Shown: piece by piece, positions 6,041 through 57,148 of the stretch
Layout of the letters: every line of letters begins with the position of its first letter
How positions within the stretch are numbered: the stretch's first letter is position 1
Origin: Natrarchaeobius oligotrophus
GTDB taxonomy: Archaea > Halobacteriota > Halobacteria > Halobacteriales > Natrialbaceae
Length of the DNA: 64,000 nucleotides
Reading direction: 5' to 3'
NCBI RefSeq assembly: GCF_003841465.1
Contig: NZ_REFZ01000004.1
Span: 248,001-312,000 of the forward strand
Program-made: the position numbers and the translations under genes
The notes under the pieces: generated by a model
Seen by the model: the letters and a program-made list of their open reading frames with translations, nothing else
Databases searched by the model: none
What the model was told of the DNA's origin: nothing

Positions 6041-7243
6041 TCAGTTTCCGAACGCGCCGCGTTCCTCCAGGTCGTCGAGTTCAGATTCGTCGTAGCCGAG
6101 TTCCGCGAAGACGCTTCGGGTGTGCTCGCCGAGACGCGGCGGCGGGGACTCGAAGCCGCTGTCGGCCCGGTCGTAGTTCAGCGGGTGTTCGACGACCGGA
6201 ATCGCTCCGCGCTCGGGGTCGTCGATCGTCGTCACGGCGTCGCGCGCCTCGGTCTGTTCGTTGTACAGGGCGTCGTCGACCTCGTAAACCGGACCCGCGG
6301 GGATGCCGGCGTCGTCGACGAGGACGTCCATCCACTCGTCCGTCGTGCGCTCGCGGAACGTCCCCTCGAGTTCGGCTTCGAGTTCCGCCATGTGTTCGAC
6401 CCGGTCGCCGTTGGTCTCGAAGCGCTCGTCGTCGGCGAGCTCGGACCGATCGATCGCGTCACAGAGGCCCCGCCAGAGCTTCTGGTTCAGGCAGGCGACG
6501 TTGAGGTAGCCGTCGGCGGTTTCGAACGTCTGGTAGGGCGCGAGAACCGGATCCTTCGTCCCCATACGGGACGGCGAGTCGCCCGCGAACACCTTTCCGG
6601 CTTGCTTGGTGAGCCACGGGAGGGCGGCGTCGAGCATCCCGAGGTCGATGTACTCGCCTTCGCCGGTCAGCTCGCGCCGGTAGAGCGCGTTCGAGATGCC
6701 GAAGGCGGCCCACATCGCCGTGATGAGATCGGTCATCGGCAGTCCGACCTTGACCGGTCGCCCGTCCGGTTCGCCGGTGACGCTCATGATGCCGCTCATC
6801 CCCTGGATCAGCAGGTCGTAGCCGGGCCGCTGGCTCCAGGGTCCCGTCTGACCGAACGCCGAAATCGCACAGTACACGATCTCCTCGTTGTGCGATCTGA
6901 TCGTCTCCTCGTCCACGTCGAGCCGTTCGGCGGTGCCGGGACGGTAGTTCTGGAGGAAGACGTCCGCCTCGCTCGCGAGGGCGTACAGCGCCTCGCGGCC
7001 GGCCTCGGTCTTCAGATCGAGTTCGACGCTCCGTTTACCGTAGTTGACCGTCCAGAAGTACGGCGACTCGCCGTCGATAAACGGCGGCCCCGAGTGGCGG
7101 TTGTCGTCGCCGACACCCGGTCGCTCGACTTTCACCACGTCGGCCCCCTGGTTCGCGAGCATCAGCGAGCAGAACCCGCCGGTGACGAACGTCGTCAGGT
7201 CGACGACGCGGACCCCCTCGAGAATTCGATCGTGAGAACTCAT
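6041..7243 (-). CDS. CaiB/BaiF family (class III) CoA-transferase
   Basis: The ATG at 7243 is preferred over a GTG four codons upstream. The 400-aa protein matches class III CoA-transferases: the N-terminal segment LEGVRVVDLTTFVTGG, the core stretch NYGKRSVELDL, and the catalytic aspartate in GYDLLIQGMSG. These enzymes move CoA between organic acids such as oxalate, carnitine or succinate esters; racemases of 2-methylacyl-CoA share the fold. The acceptor here is not predictable. It lies between an EthD-domain gene and a permease gene without a shared operon. Confidence 0.88.
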   Translation of the reverse strand: MSSHDRILEGVRVVDLTTFVTGGFCSLMLANQGADVVKVERPGVGDDNRHSGPPFIDGESPYFWTVNYGKRSVELDLKTEAGREALYALASEADVFLQNYRPGTAERLDVDEETIRSHNEEIVYCAISAFGQTGPWSQRPGYDLLIQGMSGIMSVTGEPDGRPVKVGLPMTDLITAMWAAFGISNALYRRELTGEGEYIDLGMLDAALPWLTKQAGKVFAGDSPSRMGTKDPVLAPYQTFETADGYLNVACLNQKLWRGLCDAIDRSELADDERFETNGDRVEHMAELEAELEGTFRERTTDEWMDVLVDDAGIPAGPVYEVDDALYNEQTEARDAVTTIDDPERGAIPVVEHPLNYDRADSGFESPPPRLGEHTRSVFAELGYDESELDDLEERGAFGN

Positions 7244-7326
7244 GTCGTATCGCACCGATTGGCGCGGTGGGGGAAAAATCTTCGTGCCCGACGACTCCGG
7301 ATACCCCGGTACGGGAGAGTGAAGCG

Positions 7327-7806
7327 TCAGTTCGCCGGGCCGGGGCCGCCCGTCCCGTCACTCGGATTCGAGGACGTTCGCTCCCGCTCGGCTCTCGCCG
7401 ACTCGATCGCCGGCTCGAGTTCGTCGAAGAGCGCGTCGGCGTCCGCCGGGAAGACCTCGACCGGCTTTGGCTGGCTGTGGGTGTGGATCCGGACCCGATC
7501 GCGGTGGCGGTAGGTGCGGTAGACGCTCCAGAGACCGAACGCGGCGAAGACGGTCCCGAGCAGGGCGTTTTCGGGAATCGAGTAGAGACCGAACAACAGG
7601 AGAGCGCCGCTCAAAATCGCCAGGAACCAGTTGAACGATTCGTTCGCGACCTCGCTGACGTTCGTGTACGGCACGCTCGTCAGTTCGTCGTCCGATCGGA
7701 CCAGAACCCGCCGTTCAGTCACCGCGATTTCGCCGCCGCGCCGGAGGTCACCACGAAAGTAGAGCTGTTCGCCCCGGTCGAGCTCGAGGCCGCGTCTGCT
7801 CGGCAT
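7327..7806 (-). CDS. Small membrane protein with PH-like domain
   Basis: The 159-aa protein begins with a region resembling bacterial PH domains (GEIAVTERRVLVR, typical of membrane-linked PH-like proteins), followed by two adjacent hydrophobic segments (about residues 65-100), a basic hinge (YRTYRHRDRVRI) and an acidic tail rich in Ser and Gly. An ATG three codons further upstream (7815) is also possible. The gene ends 83 bases from the CoA-transferase start and begins 67 bases after the permease stop. No specific role can be assigned. Confidence 0.65.
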   Translation of the reverse strand: MPSRRGLELDRGEQLYFRGDLRRGGEIAVTERRVLVRSDDELTSVPYTNVSEVANESFNWFLAILSGALLLFGLYSIPENALLGTVFAAFGLWSVYRTYRHRDRVRIHTHSQPKPVEVFPADADALFDELEPAIESARAERERTSSNPSDGTGGPGPAN

Positions 7807-38477: not shown

Positions 38478-40298
38478 CTATCGATCGATGCGATCCGACA
38501 GGCCGAGTCCCTCGCTCGATCCCGTTCGTAACCGCGCGTAGCAGTACGACGCGACCAGCAACGCGACACCGAGGACGAGAAACGACGCCGTCCGGGCGAC
38601 CGCCTCGAGGTCGCGCGTGTCGAACAGGAACACCTTGGCGGTGGCGAGCGCGAGCACGCCGACGCCGAGCAGCCGGAGGCCCCGAACGCCGCCCCCGAGA
38701 CCGATTCCCAGGAGCGCCAGCCCGAACAGCACCCAGGCGATTGAGATGCCGACTCCCGACAGTTCGAGCCCGAGGATCAACACGCCGAGTCCCGTCGCGG
38801 CCGCGGCGTAGCCCGCCGGAACCGTCGCCTCTTTACCGCGAACGTCGGCCGCGGGATCGGCGCGCGAGAACCACCAGGCCAACCCGTAGAAGGTCGCGAC
38901 CGCGAGCGCGAACGCAACGGGACGGCCGGTCAACGTCGCCGCCGGATCGGCCGCATCGAACGCGGGAAGATCCGTCGCGTCGACCGCCAGCAGCTTCACC
39001 ACGAGCGCGCCGGCGACGACGTGTGCGCCCACCTCGAGTGCGGGCGTGGCTCCGATCCGCGCGAGGGTGACGGCCGCACAGACCACCGCAAGGGTGCCGA
39101 CGGTCGCCGCGAACGTGCCGGCGGCCAGCACGATCCCCGCCGCGAGGAACGCGACCGCGCTCGCACCCGCCGGTCCGTCCCGCCGGATCGGCCGCCGGTC
39201 CGTGAGCAGGTACGTTCCCGCAAGCGCGGCGGCGACGGCGACGGCTCCGAGTCCCTCGACCGCGGACGTCGCGACCGCACTCCTGATAGCGATCTCGAGA
39301 AAGAGCGTCGCGAAGCCGGCGTTTGCGACGGTCAGGACGGCGGCCTGGGTGCGGAACGATCGATCGAACGTCGCGTCCGACTCACCGGTGCTCGCAGCCG
39401 CCCGGAGAACGTAGCCGCCGACCAGGTACGTCGCGAACGCCGCCGCGCCGGCCCCGCCGATCGCCACCGCTGACGGCTCGAGATCGACGAGCCACAGAAA
39501 CAGGACGCCGTAGGTGGCAAACGCACTCGAGACGACCAGGCGGCTCCACGGGCGGATCGTCGCGATGGCCGCGATCCCGCCGGCGAGCAACAGGACGTAG
39601 ACGGGTGTCACCGCGACCGTCGCCGCGTCGGTGCTCAGCGTCGCGGTGACGTACCCGAGCAAGAACGCCTCGCCGGCGACCAGCGGCGCGCCGTCGCGGA
39701 TCGACGCGCCCGCGGTGACCGTAACGAGCAGCGTCAGCGCGAGGAGGACGGCCCACAGCGGCGTTCCGATCGCTTCCCGGTAGCTTTCGAATCCGTAGGC
39801 GGCGTACGTGCTGAAGTACGCGATCGCCAGGCCCGCGCCGGCGGCGATGCGTCCCCACCGGACGCGTCCACGTCGGACCGCGGCGTACCGCCCGCCACCG
39901 AACAGCGCCAGCCCCGCGAGCGCGCCGACGGCGACGCGGCCGGCCGGTCCGAGCAATCCGATCTCGATCGCGAGCCGGACGAAAAAGACCGCGCCGACGA
40001 CGAGCGCGAGCGCACCCACGAGCCCGAGCCACCGAACCCCGAGTACGGACTCCAGGTCGCGGTCGGCGGCCGACGCCTCCGGGGGTTCCTGGGATTCCGC
40101 GGCTCCCGCCTCGTCCGTCGGCGACGGTTCCGCGTCCGCGTCGATTCCGTCGGTCGCGGACGCGCCTTCCGTCGGCTCGTCCGCCGGTACCGAATCGTCC
40201 TCGGTGAGCCTCTCTTCGATCGTCTCGAGTCGACGGTGGAGGGCGTCGACCTCCGTGCGAAGCCGTTCGACCTCGCGCTGGAGATCCTCGTCGTTCAT
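38478..40298 (-). CDS. DUF2339 family multi-pass membrane protein
   Basis: I favour ATG 40298 because TTATGA at about 40325-40331 is well placed; an ATG at 40328 is possible. The roughly 606-aa protein begins with a coiled-coil (EDLQREVERLRTEVDALHRRLETIEERL), then an acidic Ser/Glu/Ala linker (about 45-90), then around 16 hydrophobic helices. The segment LGVRWLGLVGALALVVGAVFFVRLAIE is the DUF2339 start in shortened form W-L-x-x-x-G. The family is widespread and uncharacterised. Confidence 0.82.
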   Translation of the reverse strand: MNDEDLQREVERLRTEVDALHRRLETIEERLTEDDSVPADEPTEGASATDGIDADAEPSPTDEAGAAESQEPPEASAADRDLESVLGVRWLGLVGALALVVGAVFFVRLAIEIGLLGPAGRVAVGALAGLALFGGGRYAAVRRGRVRWGRIAAGAGLAIAYFSTYAAYGFESYREAIGTPLWAVLLALTLLVTVTAGASIRDGAPLVAGEAFLLGYVTATLSTDAATVAVTPVYVLLLAGGIAAIATIRPWSRLVVSSAFATYGVLFLWLVDLEPSAVAIGGAGAAAFATYLVGGYVLRAAASTGESDATFDRSFRTQAAVLTVANAGFATLFLEIAIRSAVATSAVEGLGAVAVAAALAGTYLLTDRRPIRRDGPAGASAVAFLAAGIVLAAGTFAATVGTLAVVCAAVTLARIGATPALEVGAHVVAGALVVKLLAVDATDLPAFDAADPAATLTGRPVAFALAVATFYGLAWWFSRADPAADVRGKEATVPAGYAAAATGLGVLILGLELSGVGISIAWVLFGLALLGIGLGGGVRGLRLLGVGVLALATAKVFLFDTRDLEAVARTASFLVLGVALLVASYCYARLRTGSSEGLGLSDRIDR

Positions 40299-54004: not shown

Positions 54005-54467
54005 ACCGCACACTTTCCGCACTCGAGTGAAAAGGGGTCTGCCGGCGTCTGCGAGCCGTCGGCACGCGACGACACTCCCGGGTCGCCCGCGCCGACTTCG
54101 GTTTCGAAGCGTCACCACCGTCGCTTGCCAGTTCAGGGGTACTTATGAGCCACCGTTCTCGTTGTTCGACTGCCCGTGCGGTAGTTTCCAACCCACCACA
54201 CCACCTACCGCTACCCCACGGGTTGCCGGCGACGTCTCCTTTGGATTCGACGGACGGCCGTCCATCGTCACCGGTAGCACCGCCGACGGTTCGCGGCCTC
54301 ACCGACGAGATCGAGTGGTCGCGTCGAACCGCCGGGCGGGAACGAACGGCACCGGCCGACCCAATCGCGAACGCGATCGCCTCGATCCGTCGAGACGTCG
54401 TCTCTTTCGCTTCGTGCAACGAACTTACCGTGGGCGTTATCGCCGTTTTCCCGGTACGTGACGGTTT
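54005..54467. other. Gap between divergent genes
   Basis: Open frames here are Pro/Arg/Ser-rich and not convincing. A GTTTATG element lies at about 54462-54468, at the very start of the next gene, which bears on its true start. Nothing else is seen. Confidence 0.4.
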
Positions 54468-56450
54468 ATGATTCCGATAGCAATGTGGCGAGGGTGCGAT
54501 CGGCCACTGATGTCATTGCGAAACGAAGCCGTCGGATCGCTCCCCACCCGGATGGCGGTCGCTCGACGATCGCTGTCCTCGGCGATCACCAAGTACGCAC
54601 CCGTGATCGGTCTCCTCGGGGCTCTCGTCCTCCTCGGAATCGCTTTCAGAACCCATCTCGATTTCTCCCAGCAGCCCCTCGAGCCGTACCGGATGTTCTT
54701 TGAACTGCTCGTCGCGGGACTGGTCATTTCGCTGTTGCGAAGCAAGGTGGGGCTCGTCACCTACGGGATGTTCGGTCCGATCGTCATCTCGTTCATCCTG
54801 ATCGAGAGCGGACTGCTCTGGGGACTCGTGTTGTTCGTTAACGTCTTCCTGATCGCCCTGGGAACGTACCTGGTCATCCGGCCGTTCCGTCTCGGTACCG
54901 CCCACCGAATCTGTGCGCTCGTGATGACCGTCGCCATCGCGATCACCACGTTTCACATCATGAGCGACAGCGGAACGCTGCCCCAGGAGGTAAACGCGCT
55001 GCAGGCCTTCTTCCCGGCGATCATCACCGCGTGGTACGCCGATCGGTTCGCCCGCGAACTCACGGAACGCGGCTGGCGAGCGCCCGCGGTCCGGTTCAGC
55101 TGGACGATGGTCGCGATCGTCGCCGCCTACGCCGTCGTCGCGAACGGGACGATCGTCACGTGGTTCATGCAGACGCCCGAATCCTGGGCGTTCGTCTTCG
55201 CCGCGAACGTCTACCTGGGTGCACAGTCGTCGACTCGCCTCAAGGAGTACCTCCGCTTTTCGAACGTCTACGGACAGTCGCGACTCTCCGTGCTCAGGGC
55301 ATCGGTGCGGGCGCGACTTCACAACGCGAGTGCCCGTCTCCGCGGACTCTTCGGAGCGGAAACGTCGCGCGTCGAAGCCACGTCGGTCATGGCGATGAAC
55401 CGCCGAAACCGGCTGATCAAGCAGTACAATCCCCAGCACCTCTATCCGGAACTCGACAAGGCGTCGATGAAACGCGCGTTTCACGGAACCGGCGTCCCGA
55501 CGCCGGAAACGTACGCCCTCGTCGGATCGTTGAACGACCTCACGACGGCAGAAGAGATCATCCACACTCGAGACGAGTTCGTGATCAAACCCGACAGCGG
55601 TTACGGCGGCGAAGGGATCGTCGTCGTCACCGGCCGCACCGAGAACGGCGACTTCGAGACGTCGAAGGGGCGGAAGACGCCCGAACAACTGCTCGCGCAC
55701 ACGCGCTCGATCGTGGAGGGGCAGTACGATCCAATGGGTCTCGAGGGCGTCGCGGTCATCGAGGGGCTGGTCCACCCCGACGATCACCTGCTGTCGATCG
55801 CCGGCCAGGGCGTTCCGGACGTTCGCGTGATCGTCTTCAAGGGATTCCCGATCATGGCGATGACGCGACTGCCGACCGAGGAGTCCAACGGCGCGGCGAA
55901 TCTCCACATGGGTGCCGTCGGCGTCGGTCTCAGCATCGCGGACGGCAAGGCCCTGGGTGGCTACCAGAGTACGAACAAGTGGTTCGACGAACACCCCGAT
56001 ACGGGGGTCGATCTCGAGTCGTTTTACGTGTACAACTGGAGGGAAATCCTCGACACGGCGGTTATGGCGGCCGAAGTCTCCCGGCTGGGCTACACCGGCG
56101 TCGACATCGTGATCGACGAAACGGAGGGCCCGATGGTCCTCGAGATCAACGCCCGACCCGGCCTCGGAATTCAAAACTCGACGTTCGCCGGCCTCCTCGA
56201 GCGAACGGAGTTCATCGAACAGCTCCCCGACTCGTTCGGACTGAAGTCACCACGCGAGAAGATCGAACTCGCCAGAGTGTGGGATCGCGTGAACTGGACC
56301 GAAGACGCGATCGAACTCGAAGCACAGTGGGAGCGGACCGACGGCGACGAATTCGATCGATCCGGAGATGCCGGGGTTCGCGATCCCGACGGTGAGTGCA
56401 CGCGGACCGATTCCGACGCGAACGGCCGAGAGGAGGTGACTGCCCGATGA
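54468..56450 (+). CDS. Membrane/ATP-grasp fusion (7TM plus ATPgrasp_ST-like ligase)
   Basis: The 660-aa frame has five to seven hydrophobic helices in residues 45-255 and a cytoplasmic ATP-grasp domain (about 320-600). ATP-grasp features are ASMKRAFHGTGVPTPETYAL, the ATP-binding lysine and loop FVIKPDSGYGGEGIVVV, VPDVRVIVFKGFPIMAM, and the metal-binding VLEINARPGLGIQN. This ATP-grasp type and the 7TM domain are usually separate genes in bacterial amidoligase-type neighbourhoods. The start is uncertain: a GTTTATG overlapping ATG 54468 could be the TATA box of a start at 54483 or 54510. The C-terminal 60 residues are acidic. It is coupled to a small membrane protein gene (ATGA overlap). Confidence 0.8.
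   Translation: MIPIAMWRGCDRPLMSLRNEAVGSLPTRMAVARRSLSSAITKYAPVIGLLGALVLLGIAFRTHLDFSQQPLEPYRMFFELLVAGLVISLLRSKVGLVTYGMFGPIVISFILIESGLLWGLVLFVNVFLIALGTYLVIRPFRLGTAHRICALVMTVAIAITTFHIMSDSGTLPQEVNALQAFFPAIITAWYADRFARELTERGWRAPAVRFSWTMVAIVAAYAVVANGTIVTWFMQTPESWAFVFAANVYLGAQSSTRLKEYLRFSNVYGQSRLSVLRASVRARLHNASARLRGLFGAETSRVEATSVMAMNRRNRLIKQYNPQHLYPELDKASMKRAFHGTGVPTPETYALVGSLNDLTTAEEIIHTRDEFVIKPDSGYGGEGIVVVTGRTENGDFETSKGRKTPEQLLAHTRSIVEGQYDPMGLEGVAVIEGLVHPDDHLLSIAGQGVPDVRVIVFKGFPIMAMTRLPTEESNGAANLHMGAVGVGLSIADGKALGGYQSTNKWFDEHPDTGVDLESFYVYNWREILDTAVMAAEVSRLGYTGVDIVIDETEGPMVLEINARPGLGIQNSTFAGLLERTEFIEQLPDSFGLKSPREKIELARVWDRVNWTEDAIELEAQWERTDGDEFDRSGDAGVRDPDGECTRTDSDANGREEVTAR
56429..56439 (+). promoter_or_regulatory. 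Strong Shine-Dalgarno sequence inside the ATP-grasp gene
   Basis: AGGAGGTGAC lies eight bases before ATG 56447. It stands out in a genome of mostly leaderless genes and supports translation of the small downstream protein. Confidence 0.7.
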
Positions 56451-56683
56451 GACGAGCCACCTTCGGTGCGGTGTTCGTCTTCGCAGGTCTGCTGCCGGGG
56501 GTGTTGCTCACCGACGGACTGGCGGTCTCGGTCGACGTTCCTGGCGCCGTTCCGTATCTCGCCGGCGGACCGGTCGTCCTCGACATTCCGGTGGCCATCT
56601 TCGTCGGCATTCCGGCGCTGTTTACCCTGTTCATCCTCGTCGAAGCGACGGGACACGTCCGCGAGCGGAAACCGCCGAGTTGA
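56447..56683 (+). CDS. Small two-helix membrane protein coupled to the ATP-grasp fusion
   Basis: The 78-aa protein has two hydrophobic segments (about 5-25 and 48-68), separated by a short loop, and a basic tail (HVRERKPPS). ATG overlaps the stop of the ATP-grasp gene and is preceded by a strong ribosome binding site. No family is recognised; it is probably a partner of the membrane ligase. Confidence 0.72.
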   Translation: MRRATFGAVFVFAGLLPGVLLTDGLAVSVDVPGAVPYLAGGPVVLDIPVAIFVGIPALFTLFILVEATGHVRERKPPS

Positions 56684-57074
56684 TCGACGCGGGATGGTCT
56701 CCGCCCCCTGTGTCCACGCCGGAGGTGTTCCTCGAGTGTCACCCCGGTCACCACGTCTCGGTGGCAGCCTTCTCGGCTCGACTACAGCAGCTGTCCGACG
56801 GCGCGCACCCGGAACTTGGCACAAGCTCCGTTCCGGATTCATCCTCGATTTTCGAACTCGTGAGCCGAGGGAACAGGCCCTGATGGCTGCGTAAACGCAG
56901 TTATCACTGTCTATCACGAAACAGCGGGAAGGAAGATCCGCCCTCCCCGATTTGAACGGAGTGAGACGTTCCGGGCGTGCGGCGCTACGCGCCGTTCCGG
57001 GGCTGCGACTCACAGGCTCAAATCGTGTCGGAAAGACGTGCTTTCCGCTCACGAAGTTGTTCGCGGAAAAGCAG
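56684..57074. other. Gap holding a duplicated tRNA-Tyr 3' end and a stable hairpin
   Basis: Positions 56937-56959 repeat exactly the last 23 bases of the tRNA-Tyr gene (57075-57097). A hairpin CGGCGC-TAC-GCGCCG lies at 56980-56994. No protein gene is convincing. The arrangement resembles a relic of integration at a tRNA gene. Confidence 0.6.
56937..56959 (-). repeat. Partial tRNA-Tyr 3' end (possible att site remnant)
   Basis: These 23 bases are identical to 57075-57097, covering the T-loop, 3' T-stem, 3' acceptor strand and discriminator of tRNA-Tyr in the same orientation. The copy lies on the 3' side of the tRNA, where integrated elements leave their second att site. Confidence 0.65.
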
Positions 57075-57148
57075 TCCGCCCTCCCCGATTTGAACGGGGG
57101 ACAAGTCGATCTACAGTCGACTGCTCTACCAGTCTGAGCTAAGGGCGG
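57075..57148 (-). tRNA. tRNA-Tyr(GTA)
   Basis: The 74-base gene folds as a complete cloverleaf: acceptor CCGCCCT/AGGGCGG with discriminator A, D stem GCTC/GAGC, anticodon stem GTCGA/TCGAC with loop CTGTAGA (anticodon GTA) and T stem CCCCG/CGGGG with loop TTCAAAT. C1-G72 is the archaeal tRNA-Tyr identity pair. No intron is present and CCA is not encoded. An AT-rich AATAATAACC box lies about 30-45 bases upstream. Confidence 0.96.

Follow-up and report, generated by a model that had tools for sequence, protein, structure and literature searches.

A fused 7TM/ATP-grasp ligase and a coupled two-TM protein in haloarchaea: a possible compact form of the bacterial Rlo system

The 64,000-nucleotide stretch of Natrarchaeobius oligotrophus DNA analysed here (the window) carries a cassette in which a single chain joins a 7TM domain to a RimK-like ATP-grasp ligase, and an overlapping gene encodes a small two-TM hairpin protein. 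The chain is related by sequence to the bacterial proteins RloB and RloC. Our working proposal, to which we give slightly less than an even chance, is that the cassette is a compact archaeal Rlo form that makes a glutamate-like chain at the inner face of the membrane and passes it outside by means of the 7TM domain and the hairpin. The domains and the bacterial Rlo system are already known. In the literature searched, which leaves aside the 2009 amidoligase survey, we found no description of the archaeal fusion, of the hairpin that accompanies it at all haloarchaeal loci examined, or of an alternative partner in which a transglutaminase core lies between two TM segments (TM-TG-TM).

Results and Discussion

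The fused ligase chain

The ligase ORF is listed among the window's ORFs at 54468-56450 (+ strand, 660 aa). Its true start is probably 54510 (MSLRN...), giving a chain of 646 aa (54510..56450, +), because relatives align from MSLRN and a TATA-like TTTATG lies at the listed start. The N. chitinivorans ligase begins in the same way. An earlier sequence-only reading placed the ligase and its partner at 54468-56683; both genes are real, but alignment with relatives makes the first coordinate of that span likely to be too early. The TATA-box-like GGTTTATGAT (54463..54472, +), about 40 nt 5' of the 54510 start, is by its pattern a possible promoter.

The PF14402 (7TM_transglut) domain is located at 54666..55265 (+; residues 67-266, E 2e-23, 82-84 bits against a cut-off of 25) and covers profile positions 51-246 of 248. 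The RimK-like PF14397 (ATPgrasp_ST) domain follows at 55401..56219 (+; residues 312-584, E 1e-60, 205.8 bits against a cut-off of 31.4). Both exceed the Pfam cut-offs, which bears out the earlier claim of a membrane domain fused to an ATP-grasp domain, and the two motifs quoted for it, FVIKPDSGYGGEGI and VLEINARPG, are found in the ORF. The helices match PF14402 and not a known transporter family, and Pfam detects no transglutaminase domain in the chain. A first TM helix outside PF14402 (residues 30-48 of the 646-aa form; 54597..54653, +) is predicted from the structural model, hydropathy and charge. The top NCBIfam match is TIGR02291, alpha-L-glutamate ligase-like (E 7.6e-77), but its 258 bits fall below the cut-off of 314. 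The ligase scores 40.5 bits with TIGR00768 (RimK family), far under the curated cut-off of 143.4, and the chain scores 36.7 bits with the RloB model NF052267, whose cut-off is 900.

Residues D532, E545 and N547 (646-aa numbering) align with the metal-binding GVDI...EVN positions of RimK structures, and the metal ligands and ATP-grasp residues are invariant across 15-20 relatives. The AF2 model of the ligase has a mean pLDDT of 75.8. Its best matches in the PDB are RimK structures (including 5zct, 4iwx and 7qys), headed by the RimK poly-alpha-glutamate synthetase 5zct (E 5e-9), and these are followed by ArgX, cyanophycin synthetase and D-Ala ligases. The sequence-only reading allowed either an amino acid or a sugar-linked group as substrate. 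The closest structural neighbours, RimK poly-alpha-glutamate synthetases, make an amino acid the likelier choice, with glutamate as the leading candidate; the sugar-linked option has its sole source in the name of the Pfam family. The envelope or lipid target that the same reading proposed is a candidate. The helices and charges fit a predicted topology with the N-terminus inside, eight spans and the C-terminus inside, which would make the ATP-grasp domain cytosolic.

The small hairpin partner

The second gene (56447..56683, +) encodes a 78-aa two-TM protein; the 4-nt sequence ATGA holds both its start codon and the stop codon of the ligase. A Shine-Dalgarno-like GGAGGTGA, read from the sequence, lies at 56432..56439 (+), 7 nt 5' of the ATG. 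The overlap, the Shine-Dalgarno and the 78-aa two-helix protein had all been noted earlier and are all seen at 56432-56683. Motifs resembling GAGGTGA or GGAGGTGA occur again at many relatives' ligase/small-gene junctions. The protein is a predicted hairpin with both termini inside, a topology that its charges fit.

A two-TM partner occupies the same slot at all 23 haloarchaeal ligase loci examined, as expected for the dedicated partner proposed earlier, which is thus kept beside every intact haloarchaeal copy. At 21 of the 23 it is a separate overlapping or adjacent gene (59-250 aa), and at two, L050 and L132, it is fused to the ligase C-terminus. An automatic rule (a start between -60 and +20 relative to the ligase stop, plus two TM segments) finds a partner after 17 of 23 ligases and after 4 of 429 control long ORFs (Fisher p = 2e-22, a value that counts close relatives separately although they are not independent); the four remaining separate partners were identified by eye. 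The fused C-terminus of L050 aligns with the separate hairpin of L134 over 22 residues (E 0.007, direct BLASTP), and its assignment as a hairpin is argued mainly from synteny. In the AF2 model of the natural Salinigranum ligase-hairpin fusion the hairpin part has a pLDDT under 60, which does not give its position. Locus L132 also has a degenerate-looking second ATP-grasp copy at 6692-7618 (-), just 5' of its intact fusion.

The small protein is poorly conserved, with only two invariant columns in the alignment. Its conserved residues, Phe 52, a Pro four residues later and Phe 59, are all in the second helix. The cytosolic tail RERKPPS is conserved within one clade and not outside it. The Haloarcula hairpins (L053 9704-10456, L089 3210-3962) carry two C-terminal HVO_2922-family domains or repeats. 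Apart from the small gene, and an HExxH protein in one clade, no other neighbour gene is conserved across haloarchaea.

Distribution and mobility

Of 391 haloarchaeal genomes searched with a profile, 22 have a full-length or frameshifted ligase copy and three more have remnants. A scan of named genomes adds Natrarchaeobius, Natronolimnohabitans, Halostagnicola, Halegenticoccus, Haloarcula, Halovenus, Haloferax, Salinigranum and Halorubrum. Judged from these sequences, the ligase ORF is real and recurrent in haloarchaea, chance being excluded. PF14402 has no match in 14 named control genomes, among them that of Haloferax volcanii, which appears to be without the cassette. Phylogenetic reconstruction places the ligases in two haloarchaeal clades, both of which include Haloarcula species, and a separate Thermoplasmatota clade.

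The cassette is patchy, and decay is common among its copies. In one of these (L033, genome G120) the ligase frame is interrupted by an in-gene tandem duplication around the point where the TM part meets the ATP-grasp part, and the hairpin gene is intact. The ligase gene is split in G644, and only fragments of it are found in G013, G689 and G607.

Comparison of genomic sites shows the cassette to be mobile. Between positions 40001 and 64000 of the window, the 2.3-kb cassette (54388..56687, +) is the only part that matches N. chitinivorans locus L043 (89% DNA identity), and it lies there at a different site. The congener G624 and N. chitinivorans encode identical hairpin proteins, and in G624 the cassette and ftsZ2 are on different contigs. 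In the congeners G624 and G160 the site that the cassette occupies in the window, bounded by the cobalamin-gene flank on one side and tRNA-Tyr-cdrL-ftsZ2 on the other, is filled by 7-8 kb of different DNA. Positions 56937-56959, 138 nt from the tRNA-Tyr (57074-57148), repeat 23 nt of its 3' end exactly and resemble the trace left by integrating elements. The tRNA-Tyr upstream of cdrL-ftsZ2 thus looks like an integration hot spot. In Halobacterium sp. DL1 the ligase is on a 316-kb plasmid beside transposases. A phage origin found no support among 50,697 phage records, which gave 0 matches to the cassette.

Transglutaminase and protease partners in relatives

Relatives outside the haloarchaea (INTERMEDIATES) include a fused ligase in three Thermoplasmatota genomes. 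The one-chain fusion reported earlier is therefore present at the locus without being unique to it; it is common to the haloarchaeal family and some Thermoplasmatota. The Thermoplasmatota operon consists of overlapping genes for a surface protein with prenyltransferase-type toroid repeats (L120 863-3619, L121 34-1728), the fused ligase, and a TM-TG-TM protein (L120 5217-6317, L052 9578-10675). The transglutaminase cores of this last protein in L052 and L120 (E 4e-20 and 6e-19), as read by eye, have the catalytic Cys replaced by Ser. Several Thermoplasmatota (L125, L126, L128-L131) also have a separate cytosolic ATP-grasp paralogue of about 365 aa directly 3' of a thymidine/AMP-phosphorylase-like gene, the latter named from sequence, and these two form a different conserved pair.

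The TM-TG-TM gene occupies the operon slot of the haloarchaeal hairpin. In a search of 7,267 ORFs with the hairpin HMM, the L120 transglutaminase protein (seen as L107) is the top match below the true members (E 0.21), with two pieces aligned, in order, at both TMs. The same HMM has no match to the L052 protein, and the link is suggestive only. By position, the haloarchaeal hairpin may correspond to the TM-TG-TM subunit, possibly as a reduced form of it, and the inactive transglutaminase partner could serve as an exchangeable outer module. Alternatively, the small protein could be an assembly or stability factor only, outside any catalytic or export path and unrelated to the transglutaminase-like subunit. 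Its high divergence and the non-significant sequence link to the transglutaminase proteins are what this explanation predicts, but the small protein is present at every locus, is twice fused to the ligase and shares the slot of the TM-TG-TM gene. We regard it as a serious possibility, though we lean against it.

Other relatives have the two domains on separate chains. A MAG from the window's phylum (L065 835-2202) has a signal or TM helix and an outer domain without a Pfam match preceding 7TM_transglut; its ligase is separate from the 7TM, and the unrecognised outer domain takes the transglutaminase's place. At CPR-type bacterial loci L056-L058 the 7TM and the ligase are adjacent genes, not one chain. 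The ATPgrasp_ST chain of L058 (8576-9967; also in L056, L057 and L059) has a C-terminal extension of about 150 aa that in L058 weakly matches aspartyl protease families.

In the Salinigranum clade a gene directly 3' of the ligase and hairpin (L050 10193-11665; L132 2816-4216, -; L134 7586-9136) encodes a protein with a HEYVH...E motif and a signal-like N-terminus. The protein is apparently secreted, C-terminally anchored and metallopeptidase-like; the L050 copy has no match in Pfam or NCBIfam. Most haloarchaeal ligase copies have no linked protease. The scanned ORFs of the window include no protease, and there is no conserved one beside the ligase. The absence of a transglutaminase or protease gene, remarked on in the sequence-only reading, consequently holds for this locus and not for its relatives, in which both kinds occur (Thermoplasmatota TM-TG-TM, the Salinigranum HExxH protein and L058).

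Partners encoded elsewhere in the genome were considered and rejected. The sole PF05618 match of the genome is at another place (C8) and is present also in congeners without the cassette. For a cytosolic retropepsin there is no co-occurrence signal, since PF05618 matches occur in 14 of 14 genomes with or without the cassette. Candidate transglutaminase-like partners are weak matches in ORFs of 750-990 aa that are seen also without the cassette.

Relation to Rlo and proposed function

Residues 58-258 of the chain match Legionella RloB 310-507 (BLASTP, E 1.6e-14), and residues 287-571 match Legionella RloC 7-292 (38% identity, E 2.6e-64). The gene order in Legionella adelaidensis is a RimK/LysX-family gene, RloB (an inactive transglutaminase) and RloC, with a 4-nt overlap of rloB and rloC. 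Because the RloB match is followed by the RloC match, the archaeal chain looks like the 7TM part of RloB joined to RloC in Rlo gene order, without the transglutaminase-like domain. Among six TM segments compared, the first TM of the chain scores best against the N-terminal TM of Legionella RloB; the resemblance is weak, and the two are possibly equivalent.

The RloA proteases of P. aeruginosa can cut polyglutamate in vitro, and the effect of losing them is relieved when rloB or rloC is lost as well (PMC12239564). Together these results fit RloB and RloC making the substrate of RloA. No published activity for RloC was found in the literature searched. The compact Rlo form proposed above rests on the RimK fold, the polyglutamate-cleaving Rlo protease and the secreted peptidase-like gene in one clade. 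The RloB-type 7TM and the RloC-like ligase would act as one chain with the small hairpin as an obligate membrane subunit. The ATP-grasp domain, held at the inner membrane face, would spend ATP on linking glutamate, or a different acidic amino acid, either into a short chain or to an acceptor. The 7TM and hairpin part would bind the product at the membrane and pass or present it outside, where it would modify the cell surface. Several results weigh against this proposal: the TIGR02291 and NF052267 scores lie under their cut-offs, the hairpin HMM reaches one transglutaminase protein at E 0.21 and misses the other, the fusion model leaves the hairpin unplaced, kinship with PgsC has no statistical support, and a linked protease is absent from most haloarchaeal copies. 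A bolder version, which we consider improbable, makes the cassette a self-sufficient synthase and exporter of a poly-amino acid (poly-alpha-glutamate or similar) that has its own 7TM and hairpin pore and is unrelated to PgsBCA, with Rlo as the bacterial, transglutaminase-capped version.

Two further explanations concern the acceptor. The ligase could glutamylate a protein of the membrane or the cell surface, or else the small partner itself, with the 7TM and hairpin recruiting the target. RimK modifies a protein tail (RpsF), polyglutamate is cut by RloA in vitro, and the small protein is translationally coupled and has the RERKPPS cytosolic tail. However, this tail is unconserved beyond its one clade, no conserved target gene is nearby, and the study in Pseudomonas did not find a candidate polyglutamate encoded in the genome (PMC12239564). 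Taken together, protein glutamylation seems to us a poor fit, about as improbable as the poly-amino-acid exporter. The ligase could instead attach an amino acid to the head group of a lipid or glycolipid in the inner leaflet; no polymer would form, and the 7TM would be a platform that binds or flips the substrate. Membrane tethering in an enzyme class that is usually cytosolic is in keeping with this, as are the hypo-osmotic, morphology and antibiotic phenotypes of Rlo in bacteria, all envelope-related (PMC12239564), and the increased output of membrane vesicles upon loss of the Shewanella homologue (PMC12096838). Against it, the nearest folds are RimK peptide and polyglutamate ligases, and the recurrence of proteases with the ligase family suggests a peptide product. 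Lipid modification is therefore unlikely, if a little less so than protein glutamylation.

RloB and RloC are important in Pseudomonas for biofilm, antibiotic response and envelope integrity. The cassette reduces Rlo to one fused enzyme and one hairpin protein and is naturally portable. Haloarchaea have a single membrane and lack peptidoglycan. In a tractable haloarchaeon such a portable cassette makes the product and the membrane side of a 7TM-coupled ATP-grasp ligase directly testable.

Comparison with known systems

PgsBCAE/CapBCAE combines an ATP-dependent amide ligase with a multi-TM subunit and a small accessory protein. Its general logic is that proposed for the cassette, but its ligase is of another class and homology between the 7TM and PgsC is unsupported. 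The 7TM and PgsC/CapC (PF14102) are alike by eye; hhalign gives E 0.03, against 0.02-0.04 for reversed controls, and neither hmmsearch with decoys nor pairwise shuffles supports PgsC/CapC as the origin of the 7TM. The B. subtilis PgsC sequence used as query matches PF14102 (E 2.3e-39); the PDB has no PgsC structure for comparison.

RimK (30S ribosomal protein S6--L-glutamate ligase) has the same ATP-grasp fold and metal ligands. It is soluble, whereas the archaeal ligase is predicted to be membrane-tethered and scores under the cut-off of the RimK family model. The Thermoplasmatota operons of L052 and L120 have the same fused ligase and, overlapping it on the downstream side, a gene for a membrane protein with a TM at either end; they differ in having a transglutaminase-like core of about 110 aa (Cys to Ser) where the hairpin has a short loop. 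The closest system is RloABC of P. aeruginosa and other Gammaproteobacteria (mBio 2025, PMC12239564), which shares the RloB 7TM (PF14402), the RloC ATP-grasp domain and their order. In the archaeal locus, by contrast, the RloB 7TM and RloC form a single chain, there is neither an inactive transglutaminase domain nor an RloA retropepsin, a two-TM partner is added, and the host is an archaeon.
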